Source: Vibrio gallicus (GTDB lineage Bacteria > Pseudomonadota > Gammaproteobacteria > Enterobacterales > Vibrionaceae). Taken from it: a stretch of DNA of 64,000 nt. The position numbers and the translations under genes were made by a program. The notes under the pieces were generated by a model. That model had not been told where the DNA came from and made no database searches. It worked only from the letters and a program-made list of their open reading frames with translations. Where the stretch lies: the NCBI RefSeq assembly GCF_024346875.1, contig NZ_AP024871.1:1922001-1986000 (forward strand), read 5' to 3'. Below are positions 28,836-30,067 of this stretch, in pieces (positions within the stretch are counted from its first letter, which is position 1; each line of letters begins with the position of its first letter).

Positions 28836-29681
28836 TCACGCGATACCAAGGAAGTGGTTTACCACGCTGAAATATATCCACATTCCAGAGATATCGACGA
28901 TAGACGCCAATACCGGGCTGACCAATACCGCAGGATCAAGCTTAAATGCACGCGCAATTATCGGTAAGACCCCTCCCAACGTGGTTGAGATAGTCACCTG
29001 TATAAAAAGTGCTATAGCAACGGCAAGAGCAATGGTATTAAGATCATAACCCCCGGTTGTACTGCCATCGCTAAACAGCAGTATTCGCCCAACGATCACT
29101 AACGCAATCACAAAGCCAATACACAGCGCAACTCGGCTTTCTTTCCATAATACCGATAGCCATTGGCGCTTTTTCAGCTCACCGGTGGCTAAGGCGCGAA
29201 TAACCAAGGTTGCCGCCTGAGTACCGGTATTGCCACCAGCGGCAGCAATAACTGGCATATAAATAGCCAACAGAACCAGTTGGCTCAGTGTATCTTCATA
29301 ACTGGCGATAATCAGTCCAGAAACGATCCCCATCAAGGCTAACCCTATAATCCAGCCTATTCTCTGCTGTACATGAGCTAATACGCTAGTCGAGAGATAG
29401 CCTTTATGTGGCTCAGCCTCTGAACGAATAAAACCAAGTTGATGCGCAAAGTGGCGTGCGCGGACATCATCTCCACACAACTCCAGTTCACTTATCATCT
29501 TTTGCACATAAGCCACAGAGCACTGATTAAGTATGCCTACGGCTTCTTCGATTGGCATTTTTTGAAGCAGTGCCAACTGCTGACTTGTATCATATTGCAA
29601 GAATGCACTGGTTGCCGCACATATCTCCTCACGAGAAAATGAATTCAAGTCGTGAGCAATTGTAGTGTTCATTACCGTCAT
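28836..29681 (-). CDS. mgtE: MgtE-type magnesium transporter lacking CBS domains
   Basis: Inner-membrane Mg2+ channel/transporter of the MgtE/SLC41 family. The ATG at 29681 follows GGAG at 7 bases and gives 281 residues; an upstream extension to 29738 lacks support. A short helical N-domain of about 100 residues is followed directly by five transmembrane segments, with AAGGNTGTQAATLVIRALA and PVLASIVDISG (pore Asp) matching the MgtE channel. The CBS pair found in classical 450-residue MgtE is missing, so gating by that domain cannot occur. A candidate leader peptide precedes it (29870-29914). Confidence 0.9.
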   Translation of the reverse strand: MTVMNTTIAHDLNSFSREEICAATSAFLQYDTSQQLALLQKMPIEEAVGILNQCSVAYVQKMISELELCGDDVRARHFAHQLGFIRSEAEPHKGYLSTSVLAHVQQRIGWIIGLALMGIVSGLIIASYEDTLSQLVLLAIYMPVIAAAGGNTGTQAATLVIRALATGELKKRQWLSVLWKESRVALCIGFVIALVIVGRILLFSDGSTTGGYDLNTIALAVAIALFIQVTISTTLGGVLPIIARAFKLDPAVLVSPVLASIVDISGMWIYFSVVNHFLGIA

Positions 29682-29791
29682 GGCGAATCTCCCGATCAGC
29701 GGTACAAAAGCACGGTAACGACCATCAAAATAAAACACATAGCACCCCAGCGAATAGGCTGAGATCGGCTTTATTTACAGCTAGATTTACA

Positions 29792-29881
29792 GGAGAAAAA
29801 CAGAAGAGAAATAGAAAATGAATTCCCTACCACTGAGGGCAGAGACAGATAACAGTCACACCGACAGGGTTATTTTTCTCC
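29792..29881 (-). promoter_or_regulatory. Long-range 9-bp pairing in the mgtE leader RNA
   Basis: The minus-strand segments GGAGAAAAA (from 29873-29881, the end of the leader ORF) and TTTTTCTCC (from 29792-29800) are perfectly complementary with a 72-nt loop. A ribosome finishing the leader ORF would cover the first arm. Confidence 0.45.
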
Positions 29882-29914
29882 CCTTCTACTAGGAGGATGG
29901 TCGGTAGTGTTCAT
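29870..29914 (-). CDS. Candidate leader peptide of mgtE (MgtL-like)
   Basis: A 14-codon ORF, MNTTDHPPSRRGEK, starts at ATG 29914 with a GGAG Shine-Dalgarno at 6 bases and stops at TAA 29870-29872, 188 bases before mgtE. An acidic residue followed by prolines and then arginines resembles the layout of enterobacterial MgtL (Asp/Pro then Arg-Arg-Arg), which senses low Mg2+ by ribosome destabilisation. The last codons form one arm of a long-range RNA helix. Translation is inferred only from the ribosome-binding site and arrangement. It could be a chance short ORF, but the coincidence of position, spacing and composition is strong. Confidence 0.55.
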   Translation of the reverse strand: MNTTDHPPSRRGEK

Positions 29915-29980
29915 AGTTATCTCCAAAGGTTACTGGATTAGCCCAGCGGGCGTAATATAGCAAAATGTTATCAGCCAATA

Positions 29981-30010
29981 AATACAAAATGGGCACCCAT
30001 AGGCGCCCAT
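29981..30010 (-). terminator. Terminator after tyrS
   Basis: ATGGGCGCC and GGTGCCCAT (minus strand; one G-U pair) form a 9-bp stem at 29989-30010 with a 4-base loop, followed by TTTGTATTTATT. Confidence 0.82.
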
Positions 30011-30067
30011 TAATAACTACTTACACTTTATATTCCTATGGCTGAGGGTTACTCAACTCAAGTAGGA

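Follow-up and report, generated by a model that had tools for sequence, protein, structure and literature searches.

The window, meaning the whole 64,000-nt stretch of Vibrio gallicus DNA that was analysed, contains on its minus strand an mgtE gene preceded by a leader with a short ORF. The initial annotation had described a 14-codon ORF with a GGAG ribosome-binding site, 188 bases before the gene, and the coordinates bear this out: the stop of the ORF ends 188 nt upstream of the mgtE ATG (29681). The features of the locus are listed below, with the type of evidence considered for each in brackets.

29954..29959, minus strand: −10-like promoter hexamer TATATT, with TTTTGC preceding (position count of TAnnnT over leaders)
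29933..29946, minus strand: P0, a 5' hairpin immediately 5' of the ORF Shine-Dalgarno (shuffle z, lineage turnover of the stem)
29921..29924, minus strand: GGAG as Shine-Dalgarno for the leader ORF, spaced 6 nt from the ATG (conservation of spacing)
29870..29914, minus strand: leader ORF MNTTDHPPSRRGEK, 14 codons, ATG to TAA, core M-[NQ]-x-x-D-[HQYF]-P-P-S (conservation and pN/pS)
29902..29909, minus strand: 5' strand of P4, ORF codons 2-5 (two-sided changes in the alignment)
29857..29865, minus strand: 3' strand of P4, directly after the ORF stop, GTCGGTGTG in the window and most commonly TCGGTATTG elsewhere
29896..29903, minus strand: 5' strand of P1, CGACCATC, the Asp-His-Pro codons, overlapping P4 (constancy of codon usage)
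29873..29881, minus strand: 5' strand of P2, GGAGAAAAA, the ORF tail (swap test)
29824..29845, minus strand: Pc, hairpin CUGCC..GGUAG between the 3' strands of P4 and P2 (shuffle z)
29792..29824, minus strand: C-rich, G-poor tract, a candidate Rho loading site, with the 3' strand of P2, TTTTTCTCC (29800..29792), at its end (base composition)
29719..29726, minus strand: 3' strand of P1, GATGGTCG, within a conserved block preceding mgtE (count of 8-pair matches over leaders)
29671..29720, minus strand: P3, CGTTACCGT with ACGGTAAT (mgtE codons 2-4) (swap test and folding of inserts)
28836..29681, minus strand: mgtE, encoding 281 aa with the MgtE transport domain and no CBS domain (PF01769 match)

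P3 encloses the mgtE Shine-Dalgarno (29693..29689) and start codon. The promoter-like hexamer is kept in position: a TAnnnT lies at −52 to −30 from the ORF start in all 150 sufficiently long leaders, whereas three control offsets give 29, 21, and 48 of 150. A strong terminator-like hairpin (AATGGGCGCC..GGTGCCCATT, 29988..30011) is located behind tyrS and ahead of the presumed mgtE promoter.

The gene product gives a single significant Pfam match, PF01769 (E 2.3e-34). Neither CBS (PF00571) nor MgtE_N (PF03448) is listed for it by Pfam at E<=10, in agreement with its initial description as CBS-less. The same genome encodes two other MgtE proteins, both with MgtE_N and CBS domains. The 534 and 507 nt upstream of these paralogs contain neither a D-x-P-P ORF nor the conserved start block, and one paralog is preceded by a GTG-started Pro-Pro ORF of different sequence.

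A DNA search of 60 relatives finds the leader in 28 of the 36 other genomes of the window's genus, and an ORF starting MNxxDHPP precedes mgtE in all 30 fetched loci (29 genomes, the window's included). An exact 23-base pattern, in which the third codon positions were left free at Asp, His, and Pro, was run on a collection of species genomes and matches 102 stretches, with mgtE downstream in 97. Three of the remaining five stretches stop short of the gene, and the other two are from unrelated bacteria by title. Vibrionaceae (Vibrio, Photobacterium, Salinivibrio, and Enterovibrio) account for 78 of the 80 titles listed of the 102 matches.

For a sampling independent of the motif, we started from the protein and used 197 Vibrionaceae genomes at a match cut-off of E<=1e-40. 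The mgtE protein is matched in 122 of them, in the CBS-less form in 121; the other one matches only via a full-length paralog, and at least two of the 121 CBS-less copies are broken. Conservation of the ORF in the mgtE leaders of relatives had been proposed as a check, and in this sample the ORF, as M-[NQ]-x-x-D-[HQYF]-P-P-S, precedes a copy of CBS-less mgtE in every matching genome (121 of 121). It is found by the exact pattern in 75, at 201-327 nt before the gene. For the other 46, the ORF was read in every fetched leader (46/46), 45 of them at 257-377 nt before the gene, with Gln or Tyr replacing His in some and GTG starts in five. A divergent leader (L197) has Phe at the His position (MQNVDFPPS...) and is separated from its gene by 125 nt; it lacks the conserved block. 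Eight further genomes, seven Salinivibrio and one of the window's genus, have the pattern with no mgtE match, and the gene is present but shortened in all three that were fetched. The other 68 Vibrionaceae genomes have neither the pattern nor an mgtE match at the thresholds used. The leader ORF and the conserved block are both absent before a second CBS-less mgtE (open frame 279 aa) in a Photobacterium-like genome (L160, G203:C12). With this distribution, we regard an origin of the leader ORF by chance as excluded. Behind an intact leader, mgtE itself appears to be broken or shortened, by an early stop or a change of frame, in L047, L065, L076, L092, L115, and L037, and in G159 and G240.

Outside the family, a genome assigned to a different family of the order (L205:713-763, plus strand) combines a CBS-less mgtE (open frame 302 aa) and a complete leader, comprising the ORF MNDSDHPPSIKVGNNP, the GGTGGTCGTTAC block, and a P2 that is altered yet complementary. 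The remaining non-Vibrionaceae mgtE matches have open frames of at least 428 aa (E<=1e-25, 197-genome sample of the order). The other-family genome suggests that leader and gene were transferred as one unit.

Constraint on the ORF was examined in 153 leaders, a set in which some genomes occur twice and which was partly picked with a motif requiring Asp and Pro-Pro. The start, the Shine-Dalgarno spacing, and the stop are all kept, and the length ranges from 11 to 19 codons. GGAG is present within 16 nt in 150 of the 153 leaders, with a spacing of exactly 6 nt in 148. The initial annotation had also proposed a test for codon-level constraint. In 52 distinct 14-codon ORFs, pN/pS over codons 2-14 is 0.44, compared with 1.60 and 1.13 in the shifted frames, indicating that changes preserving the amino acid are favoured in the ORF frame. 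The corresponding values are 0.31 against 5.88 and 0.75 for codons 2-9, and 0.47 against 1.21 and 1.19 for codons 10-14. In addition, the Asp codon is GAC in 153/153 and the His codon CAT in 144/145, third positions having been left free, and the near-absence of their synonyms is a sign of RNA constraint on the ORF. By these comparisons, the leader ORF appears to be constrained both as a coding frame and as RNA.

At the peptide level, Asp5 and Pro7-Pro8 are present in 153/153 leaders of the partly motif-picked set and were read directly in the 46 leaders reached via the protein alone. The constant core is Asp-x-Pro-Pro-Ser, with His, Gln, Tyr, or Phe as residue 6 and a variable tail. The initial annotation had drawn a parallel with enterobacterial MgtL from a layout of Asp, Pro-Pro, and Arg-Arg. 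The Asp and Pro-Pro hold, but Arg-Arg occupies codons 10-11 in only 2 of the 153 leaders, the most frequent pairs there being Met-Lys (55), Leu-Asn (20), and Ile-Lys (18). The EPDP motif of MgtL is in none of the 153 leader peptides, and early acidic residues are fewer in the Vibrio peptide than in MgtL. The parallel is retained as a functional analogy, but not as homology; the ORF lies before mgtE in every matching genome.

Several helices involve the ORF. The end of the ORF had been reported as perfectly complementary to a downstream leader segment (the tail:UUUUUCUCC helix, here P2), and the match is exact, GGAGAAAAA (29881..29873) pairing with TTTTTCTCC (29800..29792). In a swap test of the P2 core, the own partner scores −14.01 and exchanged partners −12.21 (sd 0.17), with 0/300 exchanges reaching the former. 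By shuffling, P2 has a mean z of 1.13 and a median of 0.87 (59 tails), with several values below zero, and it is weak or absent in some clades.

P4 is formed by codons 2-5 and the bases directly after the stop. In the alignment (100 of 102 distinct rows), 90.9% of P4 cells are paired, and pairing falls to 24-51% when the partner is slid by one to three columns. Cells changed on both sides number 34, compared with 9.6 (sd 2.2) after shuffling (0/500); four pairs have a two-sided change, compared with 2.2 after shuffling (26/500). At columns 7:77, A-U is replaced by G-C in 25 rows. These sequence-level results leave relatedness in, and a swap test to which each of the 10 codon classes contributes one item is borderline, at about 0.06. 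In the clade of the window itself, P4 is weak. Across the alignment, P4 appears to have the strongest covariation among the leader helices.

P1 can form all 8 of its pairs in 130 of 153 leaders (with GATGGTCG in 100, GGTGGTCG in 29, and GGTGGTTG in 1), the site having been selected as the best within 120 nt. The ORF strand of P1 hardly varies, and no informative change for covariation is found in the 153 leaders. The swap test of P3 (CGUUACC with mgtE codons 2-4) is modest, with 7/500 reaching the own partner. Inserts of at least 14 nt between the conserved block and the mgtE Shine-Dalgarno fold with z>1 in 34 of 35 distinct sequences (mean z 3.14), while a small hairpin restricted to the surroundings of the Shine-Dalgarno does not reach significance (17 distinct, mean z 0.70). 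The bases around the mgtE start are highly constant. An N-terminal extension of MgtE as the source of the conserved block was considered and rejected, because the insert from block to start differs in length between leaders and, where longer, folds into a hairpin.

Two further hairpins flank these elements. P0 has a mean z of 2.18, with z>1 in 95 of 115 distinct sequences, compared with a mean z of 0.17 for a control region upstream; its stem sequence changes between lineages, and the hairpin is weak in Salinivibrio. Pc has a mean z of 2.47, with z>1 in 125 of 129 distinct sequences. Pc is listed as terminator-like, but its U tract is poor. Two terminator-like matches fall in the interval from ORF to gene, each followed by a poor U tract (three in the searched stretch, compared with 0.5 expected). 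Between stop+45 and stop+110, the 153 leaders have a C content of 0.26 and a G content of 0.11, a C/G ratio of 2.31 compared with 0.98, 0.97, and 0.85 in three neighbouring parts; this C-rich, G-poor tract covers the P2 partner and the bases ahead of it.

Since P4 crosses P2 and shares bases with P1, these folds compete, and mutually exclusive RNA folds appear to overlap the leader ORF. In the window, the minimum-energy fold contains P1 and P2; the z of the whole leader is −1.71, and 13/200 shuffles fold as well. The comparison of leaders shows a conserved ORF tied to this mgtE subfamily, competing helices, and a C-rich tract. The earlier suggestion that ribosome position could switch the RNA fold is partly supported, in that the leader ORF is frame-constrained and its tail fits its own partner better than exchanged ones. 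The picture was incomplete: P4 had been missed, and P1 and P3, added here, give a switch-like layout. A direct anti-Shine-Dalgarno role of the CU-rich segment, the P2 partner, was also considered as a selected feature and rejected: over 59 leaders its pairing does not exceed that of shuffles (mean z 0.18, p<=0.05 in 7%), although this pairing does occur in the modelled ensemble of the window with a ribosome at the stop.

We consider the element to be a translation-operated attenuator of mgtE, in which Mg2+ shortage leads to ribosome drop-off and raises uptake, with a probability of roughly 0.55. That the ORF acts as a leader switch is very likely. Given a switch, Mg2+ is fairly likely to be its signal, because the target gene belongs to a Mg2+-transporter family and by analogy to known leaders. 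A ribosome that completes the ORF would sit over the tail at the stop and block P2. The C-rich tract would then be open for Rho, the mgtE start would be closed, or both, and mgtE would be off. P1, through the Asp-His-Pro codons, would reach the mgtE start region, where P3 could fold over the start. Drop-off of the ribosome at Asp-x-Pro-Pro-Ser would leave the tail free, P2 (and P1) would form, and mgtE would be on. Low cytoplasmic Mg2+ would favour drop-off, as for MgtL, and uptake would rise when Mg2+ is short. In this scheme we infer the drop-off, the output by Rho or translation, and the nature of the signal.

In modelled ensembles, the mean exposure of the mgtE Shine-Dalgarno over 86 leaders is 0.50 when the leader is free and 0.41 with a ribosome at the stop. 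With so small a mean effect, Rho and transcription, rather than hiding of the start site, may be the main output. For the window alone, placing a ribosome at the stop takes the modelled unpaired fraction of the mgtE ribosome site from 0.56 down to 0.08. In the model, P2 is lost as well when the ribosome is stalled at Pro8 (sum 12.5 to 1.9); therefore, the scheme needs true drop-off and not a mere pause, which lowers our confidence in it. The low mean z of P2 (just 1.13), the weakness of P4 in the window's clade, the smaller number of early acidic residues than in MgtL, the unsupported anti-Shine-Dalgarno role of the P2 partner, and the L160 copy without leader also count against the attenuator.

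A leader of the same layout could instead sense how readily consecutive prolines are translated (through EF-P activity, charged tRNA-Pro, or the overall capacity for elongation) rather than Mg2+, which we regard as unlikely but as deserving weight. Pro-Pro-Ser is nearly constant and residue 6 is free among His, Gln, Tyr, and Phe, as such a sensor would suit; MgtP is reported to respond to proline, as is the mgtA leader ORF by that paper's citation (PMC3641672), and EF-P is reported to act on translation of mgtB and mgtA (PMC5299641, PMC6460261). However, the Asp two codons ahead of Pro-Pro is also constant, including in the divergent L197, in leader sets that were partly motif-picked, and the target gene is a Mg2+ transporter. 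The RNA itself could bind Mg2+ or another ligand, with the ORF merely coupling, and both the very constant bases around the mgtE start and the constant third codon positions in the ORF would be consistent with this riboswitch. We consider it improbable: no Rfam family is matched at curated score in the window, the three weak leader matches of a lax search are to unrelated families and far below the scores of those families, and the ORF has a frame-biased constraint, a kept start and ribosome site, and a tail that varies in length but always ends in a stop. A small trans-acting protein whose gene happens to be located in the leader would fit the strong conservation of the first nine residues. 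We consider this very improbable, because both the sequence of the tail and its length (11-19 codons) are free to vary, and because pairing of the ORF bases with RNA nearby suggests that the ORF acts in cis.

A Mg2+-responsive attenuator would have counterparts among described leaders. As reported, mgtL is a short ORF that encodes acidic and proline residues early on and lies in alternative folds before mgtA, and drop-off at EPDP turns transcription on (PMC11282234, PMC11552253); mgtL and corL are described as translated inversely to mgtA and corA (PMC11552253, PMC11282234), and Rho is described as acting on an open tract at mgtA and corA. The Vibrio leader resembles mgtL in its early acidic and Pro ORF, its alternative folds, and the Mg2+ transporter gene downstream. 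It differs in peptide, target family, and clade, in having D-x-P-P-S at codons 5-9, and in the extra helix to the gene start (P1/P3). The corL/corA system is similar in the reported inverse translation of leader ORF and transporter, alternative folds, and Rho (PMC11552253), but its target is of the CorA family. In Salmonella, mgtQ, between mgtC and mgtB, is likewise described as a translation-aborting mini-ORF whose own bases form alternative stem-loops that hide or free the transporter ribosome site, with acidic codons required for mgtB translation (PMC8092293). It has 8 codons and lies within an operon, Asp2 and Glu5 are decisive, and its single Pro is said to act via base pairing (PMC8092293), whereas the Vibrio ORF is close to the presumed 5' end and has a constant Pro-Pro.

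Two structured RNAs share other aspects. The mgtE motif takes in the Shine-Dalgarno and AUG of an mgtE, but it is a riboswitch candidate reported exclusively in Thioalkalivibrio, no Vibrio being named in that text (PMC11109978). The M-box (ykoK) is a Mg2+-related leader, and its pe20 case in M. tuberculosis is reported to have a conserved leader ORF and Rho (PMC12810186). No covariance-model match to the M-box or the mgtA Mg sensor is found in the window (Rfam). By analogy, the Vibrio element most likely works like mgtL, corL, and mgtQ while being unrelated in sequence, and we do not file it as a member because peptide and target family differ.

Tentatively, and with some doubt, we propose that Vibrionaceae evolved an Asp-x-Pro-Pro-Ser nascent-peptide Mg2+ sensor independently of MgtL, for an MgtE without CBS sensor, so that feedback moved from the protein to the leader. 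The module would travel with its gene, since the two occur together in one genome outside the family; it also precedes a short protein, with the MgtE N part and one helix, in Salinivibrio and a few vibrios. If this is true, the MgtE family has a leader-peptide switch, kept throughout a bacterial family, and the same regulatory idea arose outside the enterobacterial mgtA/mgtB/corA systems. It would also suggest why an MgtE can dispense with its CBS sensor, and provide a short motif on which to test the roles of Mg2+, acidic residues, and runs of proline in ribosome release. Among the literature matches listed (titles and abstract starts, most subscription journals being outside the scope), none describes such an mgtE leader-peptide switch, which is no proof of absence. 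RNA-seq of Photobacterium damselae reports an MgtE at a fold change of 5.35, by its sign up at 1% NaCl (PMC10308900); the value is not assignable to one MgtE and is not used as evidence here.

The short gene after the conserved leader encodes 124-131 aa in Salinivibrio, V. xiamenensis, and one genome of the window's genus (L083, L123, L053, L199, L082, and L131). Where the protein was read (L083, L123, L053, and L199), it consists of the MgtE N part and one membrane-like helix, the transport domain being lost; L082 and L131 are assigned by length alone. It has eight relatives of 126-128 aa, of which two were tested and gave no Pfam match; those named are hypothetical or uncharacterized Salinivibrio proteins. 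The short MgtE-N protein may be a small regulatory membrane protein.
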